From Theionarchaea archaeon (GTDB taxonomy: Archaea > Methanobacteriota_B > Thermococci > Methanofastidiosales > SZ-28-30), in assembly GCA_018992685.1 (NCBI GenBank), contig JACVGT010000033.1, forward strand, positions 1-13,889: a stretch of 13,889 nucleotides of DNA. Direction: 5' to 3'. The notes below the pieces were generated by a model. It had not been told where the DNA came from. It saw nothing but the letters and a program-made list of their open reading frames with translations, and made no database searches. Positions 2,337 through 13,889 of this stretch are shown in pieces. Each line of letters begins with the position of its first letter. Positions within the stretch are counted from its first letter, which is position 1. Made by a program: the position numbers and the translations under genes.

Positions 2337-2385
2337 GAGTTTCCTTTTATGTCTGCTCTTGCCAGTCGAATCAAACATGGAAAGA

Positions 2386-2401
2386 CTTAAATACTTATAA
2401 G
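2386..2401 (+). promoter_or_regulatory. TATA box for a leaderless CHAT-receptor transcript
   Basis: CTTAAATA at 2386-2393 follows a purine-rich GGAAAGA stretch that could be the BRE, and is centred about 27 bases before the ATG at 2417. The expected transcription start therefore falls at or next to the ATG. No Shine-Dalgarno sequence lies between them. A palindrome, CTTATAAG at 2394-2401, overlaps the initiation region and could be a second TATA element or an operator. Confidence 0.6.
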
Positions 2402-2416
2402 GTTAAGAAAGCTTAA

Positions 2417-5400
2417 ATGCCTCGGAGAATGTGGAGATTAGTTGAGAAGAAGTGCACATTGGTGGTACTAATTGGGATATGTATGTGGATAACTTTTATT
2501 CCACTATCGAGAGCAACTGCTTCTGCCTGGAGTTATCACATTGAAGGAATAACAGCTTCAGCAATGTCAAGAAACGGTGAATACGTAATTATAGGGACTC
2601 AGGAAGGATATTTCTATGTTTTTGACAAATTCGGGAACGTTCTGAGAACTGATCAGGTCACAAGCAAGATCACTGTTCTTGGCATTTCGGAAAACGGAAC
2701 GTTCTTCATTGGAACAACTATAGGTTACTACCTGTCTACGCTGAAAGGTGAGCCACAGATAGATTTCAATGACAGAACTCCTGTTACTTCAGTTTCAATG
2801 TCAGATGATGGGGAGGGTATCATAGTAGGGACACAAAGACAGATCTACCTATTCCTCCAATCCACCCTGGCAAAAGAACTATACGTGTGCGCTTCTTTGG
2901 AAACCTGCACAAAAGAGGACCAGGTTAAGACTACAGCGATCTCATCACTTGGGGAGGTGGCAGTTGCAGCTACGGAAACCTTTCTTCATCTGTCCAAGAA
3001 TACCGAGGGTACATGGCGGAGCAGGGAATTTGATGGAGAGAAGATAACTGCCCTCGCTATTTCTGACAACGGGGAGATTGTCGTTTGTGGAACTTGGAAT
3101 GGTTCTATCTTTGTTTTCGATTCTGATCTGAACTACATCACTAGCTGTCAAACCCCAGGAAGAGTAGAAGATATCGAGATCAGTGCCGATGGTACCAATG
3201 TCTTGTGTGGAATCGAAAATGGACTAATCGCCCTCCTAAGAACAGATGGCAGAATAGTGTGGCAGAGGAAATCTGAGGAATTCTCTGGCCCTGTTTGCAT
3301 ATCCAGCGATGACAAAATCATTGCAGTCACGGGCAGCAGGCTCGACATTTTGGATCATTCTGGAAAGACTCTTCAGGGAATCTCTGTTCCAGGAGAATTG
3401 AATGAAATTCATCTCTCCCGCAATGGGCAGTATCTCTGGTGTGTCACGACTGATGAAGTAGTATTCTACGAGTTGTATGATAATACTTACAGGTTCACCA
3501 GAGAATATAGGTACTCCTCACGAAAATCCCTTCCACTTAGTGACACCCTCGTAGAAAAAGCAAGTCTGTTAAGTGCGATAGAAAGGCCAAATAGATTTCA
3601 AATAGGGGATATTGACGGTGATGGGGAAAATGAGATAATCATCGAGTCCGGCAAAAAGATTGTCGTGACTGACAAAGTTGGAAGAATCCTATCCGAAATT
3701 GACTTTGCGAGTGAGCCACAATTACAGCGACTCTTGGATGTTACAGGAGACTTGATACCTGAAATCATAATTAGTCATTCAGATGGACGAATGAGTCTGG
3801 AATTTTACAGTGGGAAAGGCGAATTTCTCGCCCAACACGAATTCTTCAATCAATGGTGGAGCCAACCTACAGTTGGAATCAATATTTCACCTTTTGCAGC
3901 ATTTGACATTGACGATGACGGAAGAATAGAAGTAATCTGTGTTTTATCAGCTGCATATGTGATGATCCCTCGAGGAATCTACGTTTTTGAGTATCCCACA
4001 TTCTCAGATGAATGGTTCTACCCGTATGCGCCTATAGTCGTAACGGCCACACTCGTTGACCTTGACGGGGATGAGGATTTGGAAATTCTCATCGGATCAA
4101 ATGCACCCTGCAATGGAAGAAGCGTAGGGAATACTGATGATTGCCATGCATATGTAGCAGCCGTTGATTCGCAGGGAAACGAATTATGGATTAGAGAGGT
4201 CGGGGAGGGCTACACGAGGGCTTGGATCGATGCTGCTGATCTTGATGATGATGGTAGTAATGAGATTGTGTGTTGTGGCTGGTATTTTGACGATACATGG
4301 GGGAAGTTATTTGTTCTTGACAAAGATGGTGACTACGTATGCGGAGAAGACAACGTGTTCCAGCATTCAGTCTTTCTGGGCGGCATTTCCGATCTTGACG
4401 ACGATGGAAAAAAGGAGATTCTTGTCTTTACATCTGACGGAAATATTATCATCTACGATTCTCTCTTGAATCTAAACTGCAGTCGAAATATTGAAATGAA
4501 CATGACGAGGCTCACTTCGGCTATCATTAATGATATTGATGCCGATGGCGAAAAAGAAATCATTTTGTCCTCAAATGATGAAAGAGTGTACATCTTGGAT
4601 AGAGCTCTTGATATTGAATGGACGACATCTTTTCCAGGGGTTGAAAAGAGGATCTATTCTCTTGTCACCGCCCTATTCGGATGCAAGAACGATCTCATAC
4701 TCTTGAGCGATACGATGCATGTTTACTCACATCAATATGATAATGCATCAGGGCCCTGCCCCTTATGGGAAATTACAGAGCGAACCCTCTCAGAGGAAGC
4801 CAATGCCAATGAAATACTGGGACAGTCTGCTTTCGAGGGTAAGAATTACATAAGTTCCAGAATCCACTACAAGAATGCACTTGAAATATACACGGAGCTG
4901 GAGGATGGAGAGAAAATAGGAGAACTATCTGAAACAGTCTTCAAGCTAGATATACGAATAGGGTTAATCCTTCTGGTCGTATCTGATATAGGACTTTGTG
5001 CATTCATGACCCGTTCATGGCTAAGAAGAAGATGGTCTAATATGGCCGAAGGAGGCCTCCTTCTCAGTCTTCCTGTTCTTCTCGGACTATTGGAAGTCCA
5101 TGCCGCTCATGAGAATTATCTTCGAACATTCGCAACATTTACCACACCTTTTCTCATTGGTTCTGTAGTCATCATTCTACGCAGGAAAGTCATCGGATTT
5201 TCAAGGACAATTGCATCCATACTCTCTGGTCACAAGGACGTGCTGGTGCTCTCTATTATGAGATCAGATGGATCTTACAGGGTATCCGCTGAAAGCATTG
5301 GCGAGAAGTTTCGACCGGTAAAAGAGTCCAGAATAGTTGAACTCTCACCAGCAATGAAGAAAGAGCTCGTAAAGAAGGCAGAATTCGTAGTCAGAGTAAT

Positions 5401-6187
5401 AAGTCAGTTTTCATCCACAGATGAACAGGAAGTACCCATTGATTATGCAGAAGACGTTCTGGCAGAAATTGGAGGAGCCATATTTTCACGATTTATTCCT
5501 CAAGACTTTTCTGATATTCTGAGAGCCAAATTCTTGCTACTGGAGGTGGAGGACACTGAGATTCCTTGGGAGCTCATGTTCTCTCATACGTTCTTTGCCT
5601 CGAAATATGCCGTATCAAGAAGAATCGTTGCCAGTGAATCAGTGACTGTCCGTCAGAGGAAAACCAATGGAAAAAGAGCGCTCGTCATTTGCGATCCCAG
5701 TGGAACACTGCCAGATGCAAGGAAAGAATGCCGGATTGTCTATGGCAGATTGAACCAAAAGATGGAGACAGTATACATTGAAGGGAGCGATGCTACCATA
5801 CAGGATGTAACCTCCTTATTGAATACAGGGTTTGACATTATTCATTTTGCTGGTCATGTAGAGAATGGTCTCGTCCTCTCTGACGGTATCATGCACCCTG
5901 AGTCGGTGAGAGCATGTGTCTCAGGGATCCCCGTGGTCTTTGTGAACGGATGCAAGTCAGAAGACCTCGCTCAGGCTTTTCTCCTGGGAGGTGCCATGGC
6001 ATACGTTGGCACTCTTCACCCAGTGCATGACGATTCAGCGGCTGAAATTGCCTCGGACTTCTACGATCTATGTCTTCAGTACCAAATCGGAGAAGCCTTA
6101 AGGAGGGCGAGGGAGAATCACAGGGAGAGAAACCTGGTTTGGGCTTCTCTGGTGATGTATGGAGACCCTACCCTGAAATTGTTTTAG
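2417..6187 (+). CDS. Predicted transmembrane CHAT-protease receptor with two exported beta-propellers
   Basis: This 1256-residue protein is not a named family; its parts are recognisable. Residues 1-37 form a signal peptide with a plausible cleavage after ASA. Residues about 40-360 hold eight WD-like or PQQ-like repeats with a recurring pattern of I-T-x-x-x-I-S-x-(D/N)-G-x-x-x-x-x-G-T. Residues about 395-720 hold seven FG-GAP/VCBS-type blades, each with a DxDxDGxxE calcium loop, starting at D398, 441 (degenerate), 497, 548, 608, 659 and 706. Residues 797-830 resemble one TPR unit. Membrane helices lie at about 848-866, 878-895 and 904-921. Positive clusters R-S-W-L-R-R-R and L-R-R-K put the carboxy part inside the cell. 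There the CHAT domain runs from about 1030 to 1256, with IPWE (1049-1052), HFAGH (catalytic H1147), NGC (catalytic C1179) and the usual GDPTLKLF end. CHAT domains are caspase-like cysteine peptidases. An outside sensor driving an inside protease is my inference. It is monocistronic, with its own promoter. Confidence 0.85.
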   Translation: MPRRMWRLVEKKCTLVVLIGICMWITFIPLSRATASAWSYHIEGITASAMSRNGEYVIIGTQEGYFYVFDKFGNVLRTDQVTSKITVLGISENGTFFIGTTIGYYLSTLKGEPQIDFNDRTPVTSVSMSDDGEGIIVGTQRQIYLFLQSTLAKELYVCASLETCTKEDQVKTTAISSLGEVAVAATETFLHLSKNTEGTWRSREFDGEKITALAISDNGEIVVCGTWNGSIFVFDSDLNYITSCQTPGRVEDIEISADGTNVLCGIENGLIALLRTDGRIVWQRKSEEFSGPVCISSDDKIIAVTGSRLDILDHSGKTLQGISVPGELNEIHLSRNGQYLWCVTTDEVVFYELYDNTYRFTREYRYSSRKSLPLSDTLVEKASLLSAIERPNRFQIGDIDGDGENEIIIESGKKIVVTDKVGRILSEIDFASEPQLQRLLDVTGDLIPEIIISHSDGRMSLEFYSGKGEFLAQHEFFNQWWSQPTVGINISPFAAFDIDDDGRIEVICVLSAAYVMIPRGIYVFEYPTFSDEWFYPYAPIVVTATLVDLDGDEDLEILIGSNAPCNGRSVGNTDDCHAYVAAVDSQGNELWIREVGEGYTRAWIDAADLDDDGSNEIVCCGWYFDDTWGKLFVLDKDGDYVCGEDNVFQHSVFLGGISDLDDDGKKEILVFTSDGNIIIYDSLLNLNCSRNIEMNMTRLTSAIINDIDADGEKEIILSSNDERVYILDRALDIEWTTSFPGVEKRIYSLVTALFGCKNDLILLSDTMHVYSHQYDNASGPCPLWEITERTLSEEANANEILGQSAFEGKNYISSRIHYKNALEIYTELEDGEKIGELSETVFKLDIRIGLILLVVSDIGLCAFMTRSWLRRRWSNMAEGGLLLSLPVLLGLLEVHAAHENYLRTFATFTTPFLIGSVVIILRRKVIGFSRTIASILSGHKDVLVLSIMRSDGSYRVSAESIGEKFRPVKESRIVELSPAMKKELVKKAEFVVRVISQFSSTDEQEVPIDYAEDVLAEIGGAIFSRFIPQDFSDILRAKFLLLEVEDTEIPWELMFSHTFFASKYAVSRRIVASESVTVRQRKTNGKRALVICDPSGTLPDARKECRIVYGRLNQKMETVYIEGSDATIQDVTSLLNTGFDIIHFAGHVENGLVLSDGIMHPESVRACVSGIPVVFVNGCKSEDLAQAFLLGGAMAYVGTLHPVHDDSAAEIASDFYDLCLQYQIGEALRRARENHRERNLVWASLVMYGDPTLKLF

Positions 6188-6297
6188 TTAAATACCTCGG
6201 TCAGTTCAGTTCTCGTAGGGAGCTTCCAAGGTACTCTCTAGCAGAATCCGAAATCACAGATTCCTGATCGAGGCCTCCGAAGGACCACACCGAATTA

Positions 6298-6429
6298 GTG
6301 AAATCAAGTAATTTCCCTGAATATCCAATTCGAGACCCGGTGGATAATTCAGGATATGACTCGTGGGGATACTGGACATCCTGGGTTAGAACCTTTAACC
6401 TGACAAGAGTGAACACCAAAAGAATATAA
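6298..6429 (+). pseudogene. Possible remnant of an exported-protein gene
   Basis: Inside the 264-base gap after the CHAT receptor, one frame is open from just after a TGA to a TAA at 6427-6429; a GTG at 6298 could start 43 codons. Its tail (NSGYDSWGYWTSWVRTFNLT, then V-N-T-K-R-I) is rich in W, Y, S and N and looks like a piece of an extracellular domain. No ribosome site precedes the GTG, and the frame is closed upstream. It may be a decayed gene end or chance. The rest of the gap shows nothing I can identify apart from the promoter of the next gene. Confidence 0.2.
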
Positions 6430-6430
6430 G
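6423..6430 (+). promoter_or_regulatory. TATA box for the XPB-Bax1 operon (leaderless)
   Basis: AATATAAG is centred about 25 bases before the ATG at 6452, with an A-rich CCAAAAG stretch just upstream as a possible BRE. No GGAGG-like site lies before the ATG, so a leaderless mRNA is likely. Confidence 0.5.
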
Positions 6431-6451
6431 TGATGCATCCAAGCAGGCGCA

Positions 6452-7780
6452 ATGATTCTCCAGTTTTACAAGGGGACTATCCAGATTCAGGGAGACTACC
6501 ACCTTCCCAATACTGCGTGGGATGAGAGATCAAGGACATACCGGGCTCAGGCCTTGTACTACAGAGAGATTACCACTTATCTTAAGCAATCAGCTATTGA
6601 GTACATCGATTCTGTTTTAGATCTGGTTCCCTGTCCTGAGCTGGCATTCTCAGTGGAGTTGCGGGATTACCAGCAGGAAGCGTTGTCAAGGTGGCTGAAA
6701 GATAAGAGAGGAGTCATCATACTCCCTACTGGTGCTGGGAAGACATATGCTGCCCTCAAGGCTATGGAAGCTGCAAATTGTGCCACATTAATTGTTGTCC
6801 CTACGCTGGATCTTGTTGATCAGTGGAAAGAGACTATTACACGTGTATCTTCAGAAGATGTGGAAGTGGGAGAGTATACGGGACGAACAAAGACATTGAA
6901 GGCCATAACTGTCACCACGTATGATTCTGCCTACATCAATATTGATCATCTGGGAAACAGGTTCAGACTAGTCGTATTTGATGAGGTTCACCACCTTCCC
7001 TCAGAAGGGTACCGGCACATTGCAGAGTTGTGTGCAGCCCCCTATCGCCTTGGATTGACTGCCACCTATGAGAGGGAGGACGGCCAGCATTATATGCTGC
7101 CCCGTCTTGTAGGAGGGAAGGTTTATGAAGTACATCCCCACCAGCTGGCAGGAACTCACCTATCTGAATTTGAGATACGGAAAATTAAGGTGGATATGTC
7201 GCCCGAAGAGCAGGAAAAATACGCTGAAAATATTACGATATTCAGGAACTACCTTCAGGCCAGTCATATCCGGATGAGAACCCCGGAAGATTTTCAGAAA
7301 GTGGTGTACAGGAGTGGGTATGATCCCCGTGCATGGCGGGCAGTGAAGGCTCGAAATGAAGCCAGAAGAATCGCTTATAACTCTCAATCAAAACTAGAGA
7401 GGCTGCAGGAATTGCTGGAGAGACACAGAACTGATAGAATCATTATCTTCACACGGTATAACGATCTGGTGTACCATATTTCAAAAGAGTTCTTTATCCC
7501 TTGTATAACCCATAAGACGGAAAAGAATGAACGGAAAGAGATTTTGAACAAATTTAAGAAAGGGAAGTATACAGTCATTGTAAGTTCACAGGTTCTGGAT
7601 GAGGGAATTGATGTCCCTGAAGCAAGTGTAGGTATCATCCTGAGTGGGACAGGAAGTGTCAGAGAATACACGCAGCGGCTGGGCAGGATTCTGCGACCGA
7701 CAGACAAGAAAGCTATCCTGTACGAGGTGATCTCACGAGGCACTGCAGAGATCCAGACGTCTGCCAGGAGGTCACGATAG
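6452..7780 (+). CDS. XPB-family DNA repair helicase (superfamily 2)
   Basis: The 442-residue protein is an archaeal XPB-type ATP-dependent DNA helicase, thought to act in DNA repair with the Bax1 nuclease. After an amino-terminal domain of about 65 residues, helicase motifs appear in order: R-D-Y-Q-Q-E-A (71-77), Walker A LPTGAGKT (91-98), TLDLVDQW (118-125), DEVH (177-180), LTAT (202-205), IIIFTRYN (330-337), DEGIDVPE (383-390) and QRLGRILRP (408-416). The sequence RED at 208-210, right after LTAT, matches the RED motif diagnostic of XPB. The insertion at about 240-300 fits the thumb domain. The length matches short archaeal XPBs, which lack the eukaryotic extensions. The bax1 gene follows after 12 bases, a conserved archaeal pairing. 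Confidence 0.95.
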   Translation: MILQFYKGTIQIQGDYHLPNTAWDERSRTYRAQALYYREITTYLKQSAIEYIDSVLDLVPCPELAFSVELRDYQQEALSRWLKDKRGVIILPTGAGKTYAALKAMEAANCATLIVVPTLDLVDQWKETITRVSSEDVEVGEYTGRTKTLKAITVTTYDSAYINIDHLGNRFRLVVFDEVHHLPSEGYRHIAELCAAPYRLGLTATYEREDGQHYMLPRLVGGKVYEVHPHQLAGTHLSEFEIRKIKVDMSPEEQEKYAENITIFRNYLQASHIRMRTPEDFQKVVYRSGYDPRAWRAVKARNEARRIAYNSQSKLERLQELLERHRTDRIIIFTRYNDLVYHISKEFFIPCITHKTEKNERKEILNKFKKGKYTVIVSSQVLDEGIDVPEASVGIILSGTGSVREYTQRLGRILRPTDKKAILYEVISRGTAEIQTSARRSR

Positions 7781-7783
7781 TCG

Positions 7784-7791
7784 GGTGGGAG
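7784..7791 (+). promoter_or_regulatory. Ribosome-binding site of bax1
   Basis: GGTGGGAG immediately precedes the ATG at 7793 with one base between. It is a poor match and close spacing, so coupling to termination of the helicase 12 bases earlier is probably as important. Confidence 0.35.
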
Positions 7792-7792
7792 C

Positions 7793-9304
7793 ATGTTTTC
7801 CAAGGATTTACTTGTCACCAGAAAGCGGAAACCGTATATAACTCCCGTGTATCTTCATCCTGACGAGTTACTGCTGGCAACCAGGATAATCTCCCTCTAC
7901 AGAGAAGGAAAGACCAAAGGAGAAATTGATGAGGAGACATCCTCTCTGGAAACCCACAGCAACTTCCGGGTGGTGAGAGGGCTGTCGGAGCTCATGCGGA
8001 GGCGAACCACCTTTAGCTCATTGTATGCGGCAGATCCCAGGGCAGTACGCACCTTCTTGTATGAGAGAGGGATCACAACCAACAGAAAGGAACGATCTCT
8101 CGCACTGGAAGAAGCTGCCCTCAAGTTCTCGGTCTCGATGGAGGACATAGAAAGCAGTTTCTGGGCAGATCGGGAGGAATTTCATAGGGTATCAGCTGTT
8201 GAGGACATTCCTGCTGGTGACCTGATTACGTCTTACAACCTTTCCCTGACCCAAACTCTCCTATTTGATGCCATATCTCTGCAGTTTTCATCCTCGGGGA
8301 ACTATCAGAACATCTTCAGGATGATCAAGTACCTGGGGTTAATGTACGAGGTGGATTCAGAACAGGACCCCTTTGTTGTCACGGTAACTGGTCCTGCCTC
8401 TCTGTTCAGGAAAACTAAGAAATATGGAACTGCTCTGGCTAAATTGCTCCCTCATATTATGAGAGCACCTTCATGGAAGATCAGAGCCCAGATAGAGACC
8501 ACTGTAGCAGGAGAACCCCGGATTTACATATTTGAGCTTTCAGATAGCAAGCAGAAGTTGTTTCCTGATACTCTGGAACTGGTTGAACACTTTGATAGCG
8601 CTGTGGAAGAAGACTTCTTGAAACGGTTTTCTTCTTTGAGGAAAGACTGGGACATCAAGAGGGAGCCCACCATCCTGCAAACGGGGGCTACGGTGATGAT
8701 TCCTGACTTCAGTGTGGAAAGGAGGGGAAAGAAGTGTTATGTAGAGATCGTGGGCTTCTGGACACCAGAATACCTGGAAAAGAAGACTGAGAAGGTGAAA
8801 GCACTAGAGGAGGAGATTATTCTCTGTGTTAGTAAGGAACTGCAGTGCGCAAAGAAGGATTTTCAGAAGGAAAATGTCAATGTAGTCTTCTATGATAAAC
8901 AGGTCCCCATGAAACCGATTTTGGACAAGATCAGATGCATTGAAGAGGAACAGATGAGAGAAGAGGGGGAAAGGGTTTCAGAAGGAAAGATTGAATTAAC
9001 TGGTGAGATTGTTTCTCTGGAGGACATTGCCCGCTCTCAGAACGTGGGAATAGAGGCAGTAAAACGTGTCCTGGAAAACAGTGAAGAAGGAGAAGTAGTG
9101 GGAGATATGTTTGTGAAAAAGAGTGTACTGGAGAGCCTCAAAGTGAAAGTGGCAACTCTGGATGATATGCGGCTGCCATCCGTTAGAGAAGTTCTGAAAG
9201 AGTACAACCTGGATGAAAAAGTCTTGAAAGCCTTGGGCTACGATATTGAATGGAAAACCCTCGACATGAATCAGGCTGTGGTGAAAAAGGCTGCATCTTC
9301 ATGA
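7793..9304 (+). CDS. bax1: Bax1 (DUF790) nuclease partner of XPB
   Basis: The 503-residue protein begins MFSKDLLVTRKRKPYITPVY, a typical DUF790/Bax1 start. Bax1 proteins bind archaeal XPB and act as structure-specific DNA endonucleases; the pair is viewed as a counterpart of XPB-XPG in nucleotide excision repair. The likely PD-(D/E)xK-type active site is PDF (304-306) followed by CYVEIVGFWTPEYLEKK (315-331), with D305, E318 and a downstream lysine as candidate catalytic residues. The amino half is helical and probably the XPB-binding part. Residues about 400-450 read like a small winged-helix segment, with V-S-L-E-D-I-A-R-S-Q-N-V (407-418). A charged stretch at 383-397 precedes it. The operon position right after the helicase is strong support. 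Confidence 0.92.
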   Translation: MFSKDLLVTRKRKPYITPVYLHPDELLLATRIISLYREGKTKGEIDEETSSLETHSNFRVVRGLSELMRRRTTFSSLYAADPRAVRTFLYERGITTNRKERSLALEEAALKFSVSMEDIESSFWADREEFHRVSAVEDIPAGDLITSYNLSLTQTLLFDAISLQFSSSGNYQNIFRMIKYLGLMYEVDSEQDPFVVTVTGPASLFRKTKKYGTALAKLLPHIMRAPSWKIRAQIETTVAGEPRIYIFELSDSKQKLFPDTLELVEHFDSAVEEDFLKRFSSLRKDWDIKREPTILQTGATVMIPDFSVERRGKKCYVEIVGFWTPEYLEKKTEKVKALEEEIILCVSKELQCAKKDFQKENVNVVFYDKQVPMKPILDKIRCIEEEQMREEGERVSEGKIELTGEIVSLEDIARSQNVGIEAVKRVLENSEEGEVVGDMFVKKSVLESLKVKVATLDDMRLPSVREVLKEYNLDEKVLKALGYDIEWKTLDMNQAVVKKAASS

Positions 9305-9387
9305 GGGTTATGCAATGCAGTTCACGGAGCATTCAGTACGTGAGAGAACTTGGCATCCGTGTGGGAGGAGCGATCATGGTACTGTGA
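9301..9387 (+). CDS. Possible 28-residue ORF coupled to bax1
   Basis: The ATG at 9301 overlaps the bax1 stop in an ATGA arrangement and opens 28 codons to a TGA at 9385. The product starts M-R-V-M-Q-C-S and contains SIQYVRELGIRVGGAIMVL, which looks more like a folded-protein fragment than random sequence. I do not recognise it. It may be a real small protein, the truncated start of a lost operon gene, or chance. The ATGA overlap is the only positive signal. Confidence 0.25.
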   Translation: MRVMQCSSRSIQYVRELGIRVGGAIMVL

Positions 9388-9393
9388 ACAACA

Positions 9394-9401
9394 TTTTATA
9401 T
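9394..9401 (+). promoter_or_regulatory. TATA box for leaderless rtcA
   Basis: TTTTATAT is centred about 25 bases before the ATG at 9422, with an ACAACA stretch just before it. No Shine-Dalgarno match lies between box and ATG, so a leaderless mRNA separate from the XPB-Bax1 transcript is likely. Confidence 0.6.
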
Positions 9402-9421
9402 GTCAATGAAGTTGTCAATGC

Positions 9422-10456
9422 ATGCTTGAAATTGATGGTAGCCATGGTGAAGGTGGAGGACAGATTCTCAGGACTGCTGTGGCTTTATCTGCTGTCACAG
9501 GAATCCCCTGCAGGATTACTAACATCAGAGCAAACCGTCCCAGTCCTGGATTGAAACCCCAGCACTTGATGGGGATAAAGGCAGCTGCAGAGATATGTAG
9601 CGCTGACACAAAAGGGGTTCACAGTGGATCAACATGGATAGAATTCATTCCTCATGATATTTCAGGTGGTGAGTACACCATCGAGATCGGGACTGCTGGA
9701 TCCATAACGTTGATCCTGCAGGTCTTGACCCCTATCTGTCTCTTTTCAAATGAGCCTGTCAAATTAACTATCACAGGAGGAACAGATGTGAAGTGGAGCC
9801 CTTCTATGGCTTATTTTGAGAAGGTATTCTGCAGTATCCTGGAAAAAATGAATGCTCATGTTCAAGTGAATGTGAATAAGTATGGGTTCTATCCAAAAGG
9901 AGGAGGCAGGGTTACAGCAGTAATTCATCCCTGGAGTCAGAAGAGTGGATTGAATCTCACAGAGAGAGGTCCAGTGAAGACTCTTGAGGTGGTAAGTATT
10001 GCTTCCTCTTTCCTAGAGAATGCCAGAGTAGCAGAACGGCAGTACGAGGCATTCGAAAAGGGAGTTTCCGGTCATGTTGTGGGGAATGCCAGGTATGTAG
10101 ATACACTGAACCCTGGTTCATCACTCTGTGGAGTGGCTTTTTGTGAATATTCTGTACTGGGAGCAGATTCTCTGGGAGAAAGGGGAAAACCTGCAGAGAC
10201 GGTGGGTAGAGAGGTAGCAGGGTTCTTGCAAGAGGAAATTGACTCAAAAGCTGCTCTTGATGTTCACATGGGAGATCAGATTGTTCCATATCTGGCCCTG
10301 GCAGGAGGAAAGGTTACCGTATCTCAGATCAGTAACCACACCAGAACCAGTATCTGGGTCTGCCAGCAGTTTGTAGACACCAGATTTACCATAGAAGAAA
10401 CCAAAGTAACTGCAGTGAGGGAAGGTGGACAAGGTTCGAATTTCTCGGGACACTAG
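9422..10456 (+). CDS. rtcA: RNA 3'-terminal phosphate cyclase
   Basis: The 344-residue protein belongs to the RtcA family, which converts an RNA 3'-phosphate to a 2',3'-cyclic phosphate with ATP through an enzyme-AMP intermediate. The start M-L-E-I-D-G-S-H-G-E-G-G-G-Q-I-L-R-T is the family's signature opening, so 9422 is the natural start. RANRPSPGLKPQH (36-48), EIGTAGSITLILQ (88-100), FYPKGGGRV (156-164) and the substrate-loop region around 115-135 are all typical. ISNHTRTSIWV (303-313) contains H306, which matches the adenylated catalytic histidine. Length is normal. It appears monocistronic, ending in a T-rich stretch. RNA repair or processing is the likely role; no RtcB gene is present in the window. 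Confidence 0.95.
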   Translation: MLEIDGSHGEGGGQILRTAVALSAVTGIPCRITNIRANRPSPGLKPQHLMGIKAAAEICSADTKGVHSGSTWIEFIPHDISGGEYTIEIGTAGSITLILQVLTPICLFSNEPVKLTITGGTDVKWSPSMAYFEKVFCSILEKMNAHVQVNVNKYGFYPKGGGRVTAVIHPWSQKSGLNLTERGPVKTLEVVSIASSFLENARVAERQYEAFEKGVSGHVVGNARYVDTLNPGSSLCGVAFCEYSVLGADSLGERGKPAETVGREVAGFLQEEIDSKAALDVHMGDQIVPYLALAGGKVTVSQISNHTRTSIWVCQQFVDTRFTIEETKVTAVREGGQGSNFSGH

Positions 10457-10469
10457 CCTTTTTCTTTCC
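10457..10469 (+). terminator. T-rich terminator after rtcA
   Basis: CCTTTTTCTTTCC starts directly after the rtcA stop codon. Pyrimidine tracts with runs of T are the usual archaeal intrinsic terminators; no hairpin is needed or seen. Confidence 0.45.
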
Positions 10470-10543
10470 ATCTAGTTACCCTGAGAGCGTGGCGAAGCGC
10501 ATTAATGGAAAGGTACTTAAGGAGGTTCTACGTTAGTAACAAC

Positions 10544-10587
10544 TACTACCATATATAGTATGTATGAGGTAGCAGAACAGTGAGGAG
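10544..10587 (+). promoter_or_regulatory. TATA box and ribosome site for the DUF885 gene
   Basis: ATATATA at 10551-10557 is a strong TATA element; transcription should start near 10580. GAGGAG at 10582-10587 lies eight bases before the ATG at 10596, giving a short leader. The TATA is flanked by an inverted repeat, TACTA (10544-10548) and TAGTA (10556-10560), and a looser CTACC/GGTAG pair at 10546-10550 and 10568-10572, which could be an operator. The remainder of the gap, 10470-10543, shows nothing recognisable. Confidence 0.5.
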
Positions 10588-10595
10588 ATGCAGCC

Positions 10596-12500
10596 ATGAA
10601 AACCGTTCCAACCCATGGTAATAGAAAAAGATTGGTCTCCAGAACCCTTGTTCATAAGATTGCCGCATGCATTTCAATATTCATGTTAACGGGATGTATT
10701 GGGCAGGGTACGAACCCAGCTCCTGAACAGGTGTCTTCCGTGGCTGACATTGTAGCTCAATTGGAAGGGCTGCCTATCGATGAGTTCTTTGAGGAATCCT
10801 TCCGGTACCTGCAGCTGAGAGATCCTGATACACTCATCTACAACGGACTCGCCGACGAGTATGGTGTTGAGGGGTATGACCAATTCACCACTTTATCAGA
10901 CTCCTACATCCGCGAGACCCAGCAGCTGGAGTCGGGTATTTTGGGCCTGCTGCGGGGTTACGACCGCAGCTCTCTATCTTCTGAACAGAAACTATCCTAC
11001 GACATTTATGAATGGTATCTCGACGACCTGGTGCGCGGACACGAGTTTATGTACTGCGGGTATCCCATCAATTCTATGGGCCTGTGGGATACACAGTACT
11101 GGCTCGTTTATTCTCTGTTCGACTCTCTACCCATGAACAGTTTGCAGGACGCCAGAACCTATGTCACACGGTTGTCTCAAATAGACACCTGGATGGAACA
11201 GCTGCTGGAACAGTTGACTTTGCGAGAGCAAGCGGGAGTTATTCCGCCGAAGTTCTTGGTGCAGAGGTCTATTAGTCTCGTTGATATCTGTATTCAAGAA
11301 CGGGAAGATGGCGCATTTGATGCGGAGGCTACCTACCTGTACACTTCTTTTCGCGAGAAGCTTGAAAAAATTAATATCACTGACGAGCAGGAATACGCAC
11401 TGCTCTATACTGCTTTGGCTGAAATCGAGCAGGTTTTCATCCCGGCTTTCATTGAGTTGAGGGACTATCTTATTTATCTGGAAAGTATTGCAAGTGATGC
11501 ACCTGGCGTGGGCACGTTACCAGGAGGCGAGGCGTACTACACCTACATTTTGCGTTACTGGACTGGCACAGATTACAGCCCAGATCAAATCCATGAACTG
11601 GGGCTGGTCGAGGTGACGCGCGTTCAGGAAGAGATGCGCGCAGTTGCCGTCGAAATGGGCTACCCAGAAGATGTGAGTATGGCTGAACTGGATCAACTCT
11701 TTTCTACAGACACTGATTATCTTCACGGGGAAGCCTTGAAGACGGAATATGAGAGGCTCATCGCAGAAGCTGATGAAGCCATGGAAGACTATTTTGACTT
11801 GCGCCCGAAAGCGAAGGTGATCGTTACCTACGATCCCGAGGCCCCGCCTGCCTACTACCAGGAACCACCTAGAGATGGCTCAGGCCCTGGCCAGATGGTT
11901 GCTAACCTGGCCAACTCGGCACAATTCATTTTCTACAACCCCACTGTTTTGGTCCATCATGAAACCATCCCGGGGCATCATGTACAGATTGCCCTCGCCT
12001 CGGAATTGGACCTGCCCACCAGCTTCAGAAGAGACATCATTTATAATTTTTACAGGCAGCAGGTGCCCTTTGAGGCATATACTGAGGGCTGGGCTTTATA
12101 TGCTGAAGGGCTGGCCTCGGAAATGGGACTCTACAGGAATGACTCCCTGGGTAACCTGGGGCGGCTGAGGCTCCGTCTCCATCGTACTGCCCGCCTGGTA
12201 GTTGACACGGGTATCCACGCCAAAGGATGGACTGTCAGCCAAGCTATTGACTACCTTGAGGAGGCAACAGGTTCACAGTACAGCCAAAGCCGACTAGCGC
12301 AGATCATTGCTATACCTGGACAGGCCTGCGGGTACAATATTGGCATGCTCAAAATCCTGGAGTTGCGCCAGCGAGCAATGGATCAACTTGGTGACAAGTT
12401 TGACATTAAGGAATTCCACAACATGATCTTAGGCCATGGTCCAATGCCTATGCAGATCTTGGAGCAGGTTGCAAATGACTGGATCGAAGCGAATAAGTGA
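10596..12500 (+). CDS. DUF885 family metallopeptidase-like lipoprotein
   Basis: The 634-residue protein is an exported DUF885-family protein, a gluzincin-like group of predicted zinc peptidases. Residues 1-33 are a lipoprotein signal peptide: basic start, hydrophobic core I-A-A-C-I-S-I-F-M, and lipobox LTGC with C34 as the anchored cysteine. A helical scaffold follows. The zinc motif is H-E-T-I-P-G-H (455-461), and the third ligand is expected at E497 in EAYTEGWALYAEGLA (493-507). Both are hallmark motifs of the family. N-A-Q-F-I-F-Y-N-P just before the zinc motif and a Gly/Pro/Gln-rich segment near 590 also fit. Length is usual for the family. It is a stand-alone gene with its own promoter. 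DUF885 proteins are widespread in bacteria, so acquisition by transfer is possible but unproven. The peptide substrate is unknown. Confidence 0.88.
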   Translation: MKTVPTHGNRKRLVSRTLVHKIAACISIFMLTGCIGQGTNPAPEQVSSVADIVAQLEGLPIDEFFEESFRYLQLRDPDTLIYNGLADEYGVEGYDQFTTLSDSYIRETQQLESGILGLLRGYDRSSLSSEQKLSYDIYEWYLDDLVRGHEFMYCGYPINSMGLWDTQYWLVYSLFDSLPMNSLQDARTYVTRLSQIDTWMEQLLEQLTLREQAGVIPPKFLVQRSISLVDICIQEREDGAFDAEATYLYTSFREKLEKINITDEQEYALLYTALAEIEQVFIPAFIELRDYLIYLESIASDAPGVGTLPGGEAYYTYILRYWTGTDYSPDQIHELGLVEVTRVQEEMRAVAVEMGYPEDVSMAELDQLFSTDTDYLHGEALKTEYERLIAEADEAMEDYFDLRPKAKVIVTYDPEAPPAYYQEPPRDGSGPGQMVANLANSAQFIFYNPTVLVHHETIPGHHVQIALASELDLPTSFRRDIIYNFYRQQVPFEAYTEGWALYAEGLASEMGLYRNDSLGNLGRLRLRLHRTARLVVDTGIHAKGWTVSQAIDYLEEATGSQYSQSRLAQIIAIPGQACGYNIGMLKILELRQRAMDQLGDKFDIKEFHNMILGHGPMPMQILEQVANDWIEANK

Positions 12501-12566
12501 ACAGGATTCCACAAATAAGATAATGGTGGTCAGCTATTTTGACTCCTTCGACAATCTGAACAAGGA

Positions 12567-12574: not shown

Positions 12575-12612
12575 GATGGAGGTACCTTTGTTACATCAGA
12601 ATGTTTCAAAAT

Positions 12613-12632
12613 CTATTTATCAACCAAGGTGG
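12613..12632 (+). promoter_or_regulatory. TATA box and possible ribosome site for the serine hydrolase
   Basis: CTATTTAT at 12613-12620 is centred about 26 bases before the ATG at 12643, which would give a leaderless mRNA starting there. AGGTGG at 12627-12632 could serve as a ribosome site only if transcription begins further upstream. An in-frame ATG at 12601 would add 14 residues but precedes the TATA box and is not preferred. Confidence 0.45.
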
Positions 12633-12642
12633 ATCACCCAGT

Positions 12643-13889
12643 ATGAACCGAGGTATAGTTGTGATACTTCCTCTCATGGTTTCTCTGTGTATTACACAGG
12701 GAAATCCCCCTATTGTAGAGGAATCCGCCGCATCAGGGTATGACTTTACTCTTCTTGATAGGTACCTAGCCCGGAAGGCATCAGAACATCACGGAATGGC
12801 TCTCATACTGGTTCGAGATGGGAACATCATTTATGACAAGGGATTTGCAGGAGTCACCAGCGACACGGTGATGCCCATTGCTTCAGCTTCCAAGTGGTTA
12901 TCTGCAGGTGTTATCATGGCGCTGGTGGATGAGGGGATGCTTTCATTGGATGACAGAGCATCAGACTACCTTCCGAAGTACACAGGTAACCATGGAGAGA
13001 TGACTGTGAGGCAGTTATTTTCTCATACATCGGGCTTACCTGGTCACTATTCCAGCACAGGGATTCCGGGTTCTGATGACATTTTGGGAAACAGGTCCAT
13101 TACGCTGGCGGAAAGCGTTGATATGATTGCTCAGGTCGAATTATTGGCAGATCCTGGCACCCAACTTTACTATGGTGGATTGTCTATGCAGGTGGCCGGG
13201 AGAATTGCTGAAGTGGCCAGCGGTGAAGACTGGTTTGATCTCTTTGAAGAAAAGATTGCATATCCATTAGACATGAATGAAACTGATTTTGATGGACTGG
13301 GACCTACCAGGAACCCCCGGATTGCGGGGAGTATTCAGACCTCAGCGCATCAATACGCCAGATTCCTGCAGATGTTGCTGGCAGAGGGGAGATACAATGG
13401 TCATCAGGTTCTCTCCTCAGATGCAGTACATGAGATGTTAAAGGATCAGACGTTTGGTGTCCCCATTGTGTACAGTCCATGGCAGCAGTACAAACATCCG
13501 CCGCCTGTGGCTCAAGAGGTCCGATATGGGATTGGCTGCTGGCGTGAGGTCATTGATGAAACAGGCGCCATTAAAGAAGCAAGTTCGCAAGGCGCATTTG
13601 GGTTCTCACCGTGGATTGACGTGGATCGAAACCTTGCAGGTGTCTTAGCCGTCAAGAGCCGCCTGACAGGTGTGATGCCTCTATATCTGGAAATGAAAGA
13701 GATAATTCGAGAGATTGTCGATACGGCAGATGCAAAGCAATCATCTGGCCAAGGCAGCAGCCCTGACATTCAGAGGGACTTTAATGAGTTGCATGAGGTT
13801 GACACTGGTCCATCCACAGCAGAAATGATTGAGAATACTGTTGTGTGCGATGAAGCCAGAGAAGAACTCCGGCTGCACACAACCCACTC
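12643..13889 (+). CDS. Exported serine hydrolase of the beta-lactamase/PBP-like fold (partial, runs off the window)
   Basis: The frame stays open for 415 complete codons to the window edge. Residues 1-20 form a short signal peptide (G-I-V-V-I-L-P-L-M-V-S-L-C). The catalytic SxxK motif is SASK at 81-84, with S81 as nucleophile. F-S-H-T-S-G-L (126-132) is the conserved turn of the class C/esterase/DD-peptidase group. The usual YxN position appears as Y177-G-G after PGTQLYY (170-176), and the KTG or HxG strand position appears to be S-Q-G (315-317). Members include esterases, D-aminopeptidases and DD-peptidases; an esterase or peptidase is likelier than a resistance lactamase, but the substrate is unknown. 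After about residue 350 a polar tail continues, so there may be a further domain beyond the window. Confidence 0.85.
   Translation, partial: MNRGIVVILPLMVSLCITQGNPPIVEESAASGYDFTLLDRYLARKASEHHGMALILVRDGNIIYDKGFAGVTSDTVMPIASASKWLSAGVIMALVDEGMLSLDDRASDYLPKYTGNHGEMTVRQLFSHTSGLPGHYSSTGIPGSDDILGNRSITLAESVDMIAQVELLADPGTQLYYGGLSMQVAGRIAEVASGEDWFDLFEEKIAYPLDMNETDFDGLGPTRNPRIAGSIQTSAHQYARFLQMLLAEGRYNGHQVLSSDAVHEMLKDQTFGVPIVYSPWQQYKHPPPVAQEVRYGIGCWREVIDETGAIKEASSQGAFGFSPWIDVDRNLAGVLAVKSRLTGVMPLYLEMKEIIREIVDTADAKQSSGQGSSPDIQRDFNELHEVDTGPSTAEMIENTVVCDEAREELRLHTTH

Follow-up and report, generated by a model that had tools for sequence, protein, structure and literature searches.

A putative single-chain membrane receptor-protease with an exported double propeller and an inner CHAT domain in a Theionarchaea archaeon

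Introduction

Characterised CHAT proteases are mostly soluble and respond to signals from within the cell, such as RNA, nucleotides or partner proteins. Csx29, the TPR-CHAT protein of type III-E CRISPR systems (Craspase/CASP), is a soluble, TPR-based protease that is kept inactive until its sensor part switches it allosterically, and it is activated by RNA together with Cas7-11. Cleavage depends on its H615 and C658, which move into register upon activation (PMC10028731). The SAVED-CHAT protease (PDB 8tl0) is likewise soluble; it forms filaments and senses through a SAVED domain. HetF of Anabaena is anchored in the membrane, carries its CHAT domain at the N-terminus (aa 1-555) followed by one helix and TPR, sits at midcell and cell junctions, and works in cell division and heterocyst formation (PMC8406250). 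DdvA of Myxococcus (PDB 8rot, 8rw5) is a transmembrane protein with a CHAT domain and serves as the anti-sigma factor for the ECF sigma factor DdvS. A CHAT domain on the membrane is therefore already known from HetF and DdvA and is not new in itself.

Here, we describe a window of 13,889 nucleotides from a Theionarchaea archaeon, the whole stretch of DNA that was analysed, for which the original prediction had proposed a transmembrane receptor with exported propellers and an inner CHAT protease. The window genome (G000) is congeneric with JACVGW01, deposited as Theionarchaea archaeon SZ_28-30. It was compared with the sole sampled congener from Theionarchaea (G001); contigs of both genomes are denoted by C.

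Results

Layout of the receptor gene

The gene occupies positions 2417-6187 of the forward strand, as do all its features given below, starts with ATG and encodes 1,256 aa, annotated as a membrane receptor with a C-terminal CHAT domain. Hydropathy and charges place a signal peptide at residues 1-35 (2417..2521), with five K/R in its n-region, an h-region at 13-31 and RATASA at its end. A WD-like/PQQ-like propeller follows at residues 45-366 (2549..3514), supported by repeat positions and by several Pfam propeller and WD40 profiles of the WD/PQQ type, which match residues ~37-323; these matches, like those to FG-GAP_3 and CHAT given below, are well beyond chance. The second propeller, at residues 398-717 (3608..4567), is of the FG-GAP type (Pfam FG-GAP_3, E 5.3e-16) and holds seven DxDxDG-type loops, whose motifs, by reading, lie at residues 398, 441, 497, 548, 608, 659 and 706. 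Hydrophobic helices were found at residues 846-865 (4952..5011) and, as an extra hairpin, at 877-895 and 903-921 (5045..5179). Pfam, alignments and fold delimit a conserved inner module, consisting of a pre-CHAT region and the CHAT domain, at residues 939-1256 (5231..6184). Pfam and hydropathy thus bear out the predicted order of signal peptide, propellers, three helices and CHAT domain.

The finer repeat counts fared less evenly. Eight WD-like units and seven DxDxDG-type motifs can be counted by reading, as predicted; only one WD40 stretch passes Pfam, and the strict DxDxDG pattern is present in five of the seven motifs and degenerate in the other two. The AlphaFold model of the ectodomain, built from a single sequence, is poor (mean pLDDT 40), and because of this the blade counts are readings without structural confirmation. 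A TPR-like juxtamembrane unit at residues ~789-840 (4781..4936), which the original prediction had made part of the layout, was seen by eye only; it has no TPR match in Pfam and is not conserved, being missing from the closest relative (G001:C106). A PADLOC scan of the window returned a weak propeller match only.

The CHAT domain and its catalytic pair

A Pfam search placed the CHAT domain (PF12770) at residues 1048-1250, at the predicted C-terminal location, with E 4.1e-16 and 59.7 bits, where the curated cut-off is 24; in a profile scan of the genome it scored 63.8 bits. In CHAT alignments, the catalytic pair corresponds to H1147 (nt 5855-5857) and C1179 (nt 5951-5953). A profile of eight CHAT sequences puts both residues in the same columns as the catalytic pair of CHAT proteins with solved structures, among them Csx29 proteins and DdvA, and H1143, C1179, D1205 and W1242 are invariant in all eight CHAT sequences, drawn from archaea and actinobacteria. 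The window protein is likely to be catalytically competent, because H1147 and C1179 align with the His and Cys of known CHAT proteins.

Only the catalytic half can be trusted in an AlphaFold model of the inner part built from four sequences; there, pLDDT is ~80 for much of residues 1079-1250. This half shows the caspase-haemoglobinase fold: its best Foldseek match is the SAVED-CHAT protease (E 5.5e-9), with further matches to separase, gingipain and Csx29, and its best structural match by VIA-align is DdvA (Z 19). In this model, the membrane helix and the first half of the inner module have pLDDT under 50, so that the pre-CHAT region is left without a reliable fold. The structural check proposed with the original prediction was therefore informative for the catalytic half and not for the ectodomain. 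Profile, motif and fold all assign the window protein to the CHAT family.

A family with exchanged N-termini

At least four membrane-anchored CHAT proteins, including the window protein, are encoded in G000 and G001. Their inner modules are 37-41% identical, and the N-termini that precede this common part comprise two double propellers, one GATase-like region with MopE repeats and one multi-helix region. In the protein of G001:C106, a signal peptide precedes both propeller regions (~30% identical to those of the window protein), one helix and the start of the inner module; its CHAT domain is only presumed, because the contig ends 47 residues into that module. The protein of G001:C8 (L035 4957-8062) starts with a signal peptide and a GATase-like region (Pfam IFT52_GIFT) and continues with MopE metal-binding repeats, a single helix and the CHAT domain; the two halves of its reading frame are joined by assumption because a 100-base gap (a run of N) interrupts the assembly within the repeat stretch. 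In the alignment, Glu replaces its catalytic His at the position of H1147. The protein of G000:C21 (L036 6029-8242), 41% identical, begins with several membrane helices and short extracellular loops, has no large ectodomain, and keeps both catalytic residues, so that at least one close homologue retains the His/Cys pair. By eye, it also carries a possible winged-helix-like stretch.

Three more CHAT proteins of G000 (L042, L044 and L045, on G000:C1 and C4) have no predicted helices in the stretches read; NTPase-like motifs were noted by reading downstream of their CHAT domains. With five CHAT matches, G000 is rich in comparison with the other archaea sampled.

Membrane topology

Hydrophobic segments lie at residues 13-31, 846-865, 877-895 and 903-921. 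Given an N-terminal signal peptide, the flanks with a K/R surplus (1-12, 866-876 and 922-936) would all fall on the inner side, which agrees with the predicted arrangement of propellers outside and protease inside. Relatives add support of another kind: G001:C106 and G001:C8 have a signal peptide and one helix rather than three, followed by the same cytosolic region, which places the inner module inside provided that their signal peptides are real. Helix 1 of the window protein aligns with this single helix. The other two helices form an inserted hairpin that keeps the crossing parity, so the CHAT domain should be inside in all three proteins. An outer location of the propellers and an inner one of the CHAT domain is therefore well supported as a prediction, and independently of the charge rule. 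Elsewhere in the taxonomic order, related WD-like exported propellers are joined to one helix and two C-terminal zinc ribbons (L052, L054), so such a propeller appears to serve as an ectodomain there too; these proteins fit a predicted division into propeller ectodomain and cytosolic C-terminal side.

The locus as a lineage-specific insertion

Positions 155-2338 and 6318-12509 of the window align side by side on G001:C2 (blastn), and the intervening segment of ~4 kb (2339..6317), which holds the receptor gene only, is unmatched. In G001, TruD (86% identical) and XPB helicase (93%) are encoded next to each other, ~155 bases apart, with no receptor gene between them. The insertion boundaries were inspected for signs of a transposon and show no clear terminal repeats, either direct or inverted. 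An AT-rich TATA-like element, ACTTAAATACTTATAAGG, read from the sequence at 2385..2402 on the forward strand just 5' of the ATG, probably provides the gene with its own promoter.

By Pfam, the neighbours in the window are TruD, NfeD, XPB helicase, Bax1 (DUF790) and RtcA. XPB helicase and the Bax1 nuclease (DUF790) form a tandem at 6452-9304, an ordinary archaeal pair. Farther along lie a lipobox-bearing DUF885 protein (10596-12500), probably exported, and after its gene an open-ended beta-lactamase-like serine hydrolase (12601-13887; by reading), probably exported as well. The original prediction had suggested looking for substrates among conserved neighbours. Since the receptor gene has been inserted alone between genes that adjoin each other in the congener, the flanking genes are not candidate substrates, and at the loci compared in G000 and G001 no conserved partner gene was found.

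The other members were placed in the same manner. The G001:C8 gene sits where G000 carries other genes. For G001:C106, the G000 counterpart of the flank is without a receptor gene, in a comparison that is one-sided because the contig breaks off there. The G001 contig that corresponds to G000:C21 stops at the border. Three of the four family members thus appear to be lone genes in lineage-specific places. At the place of the C8 receptor, G000:C3 (L108 3212-8703) has three related ORFs of ~450 aa and a membrane protein.

Distribution

Among 396 archaeal genomes sampled, 11 gave any CHAT match, and full-length matches to the inner module were confined to G000 and G001. A peptide-pattern search with the whole protein found no relatives in 84,980 genomes; the same number of genomes searched with patterns from the core alignment gave the congener and two actinobacteria only. 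The CHAT proteins of these, Rhodococcus (L063) and Lentzea (L064), are the closest outside relatives found, with 31-32% identity over the CHAT domain and the pre-CHAT region. Unlike the window protein, neither ORF shows an ectodomain or signal peptide; the Rhodococcus ORF adjoins another CHAT-like ORF and a caspase-like ORF. Short archaeal proteins (L081 and L082, f42) were considered as candidates and set aside: helices flank their CHAT domain on both sides, and the large ectodomain is absent. Searches of viral contigs and of phage records for relatives of the receptor gave none, and plasmids gave just weak, partial CHAT matches.

Discussion

The window protein shares the CHAT fold and the His/Cys pair with Csx29, and the receptor proposed below would resemble it in being a protease that is kept inactive and is under allosteric control by a sensor part. 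However, Csx29 has no membrane part or ectodomain, and the window protein lacks an N-terminal TPR array (one TPR-like unit by eye); no Cas7-11 (gRAMP), Csx30 or cas genes lie beside the receptor gene. In SAVED-CHAT, whose fold matches the catalytic half, the SAVED domain takes the place of the membrane ectodomain. HetF and DdvA share membrane anchorage with the window protein. HetF has no signal peptide or propeller ectodomain, and its CHAT domain is N-terminal (PMC8406250), whereas that of the window protein is C-terminal. The anti-sigma function of DdvA likewise sets it apart, as no Pfam match to an anti-sigma domain or an ECF sigma gene was found in the receptor or the scanned neighbours. 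We know of no propellers in DdvA. The window contains no gasdermin gene. By the criteria compared, the predicted protein falls outside the Csx29, HetF, DdvA and gasdermin types of system. A literature search found the combination of CHAT and FG-GAP in no paper, and the layout of CHAT, beta-propeller and membrane was undescribed in a search with little reach into subscription journals. The original prediction knew of no described system with this single-chain layout, and we found no description of an exported double propeller joined to an inner CHAT domain, with swapping of ectodomains.

We consider it reasonably probable that these proteins constitute a Theionarchaea family of single-chain, type I-like membrane receptor-proteases that work from outside to inside, with a constant CHAT part and an exchanged N-terminus. 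The chief reason to propose a receptor is the apparent exchange of sensors while the inner module stays constant, and signalling through it into the cell is plausible. The input could be a ligand, a surface partner, a Ca2+-dependent state of the propeller or the clustering of several receptors. Conformational change or clustering would carry the signal across the membrane helices to the inner module, which would bring His and Cys into register, analogous to the allosteric switching of Csx29. The activated CHAT domain would then cut a cytosolic target encoded elsewhere, or itself. Its probable use would be the surface sensing of another cell or virus, leading to a protective or self-limiting response; a death or stress-response role is possible.

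Caution is called for mainly because one paralogue, G001:C8, has Glu instead of the catalytic His, so that proteolysis would not be kept in every family member; this paralogue is possibly a pseudoprotease. The Glu would suit a scaffold or a protein for surface adhesion, with an inner CHAT domain that is vestigial or serves protein interaction and cuts nothing, as would the missing substrate partner at the receptor locus. Double-propeller and MopE ectodomains are, moreover, common among surface proteins, and the window ectodomain could be an adhesin without sensing. However, both catalytic residues and the surrounding motif are kept in the window protein and G000:C21, and the invariance of four residues across the eight CHAT sequences also speaks for a working protease, so that we regard a pure scaffold as improbable.

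A membrane-tethered housekeeping protease with a structural ectodomain, in which the tether ensures envelope placement and the signal comes from inside, would find a precedent in HetF with its position at midcell and cell junctions (PMC8406250) and would accommodate G000:C21, with its short loops in place of a large ectodomain. A housekeeping role is, however, difficult to reconcile with a gene that is missing at the congener locus and whose family members occupy different places. Outside the membrane, the nearest counterpart is only ~30% identical, compared with 86-93% for the flanking genes; across the two genomes compared, this difference may reflect either fast change or old paralogy. We judge a housekeeping tether unlikely.

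A gingipain-like surface peptidase, with CHAT outside too, would recall the secreted proteins of Thermococcales, of the same class, in which a single exported chain of ~2,000 aa (L068-L073) carries both FG-GAP-type repeats and a peptidase of caspase fold, and would suit the weak Pfam C25 match of the window protein (E 6e-6), but those peptidases are C25-like and apparently extracellular, with PKD-like domains and a C-terminal anchor, whereas here the CHAT profile is far above C25, three helices (one in relatives) separate ectodomain and peptidase, and basic residues lie on the peptidase side each time, making this reading very unlikely.

The receptor reading, if true, would reveal a direct prokaryotic route from a surface event to intracellular proteolysis, with sensor and protease joined across one membrane. 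Tentatively, and with some doubt, the family might be extended to one-component "caspase receptors", in which interchangeable sensors and an inner protease form an adaptor-less counterpart of death receptors and spread as single-gene cassettes. Such receptors would offer a simple model for the origin of receptor-coupled caspases, and the window protein offers a concrete case on which to test whether archaea use proteolytic signalling from outside to inside.
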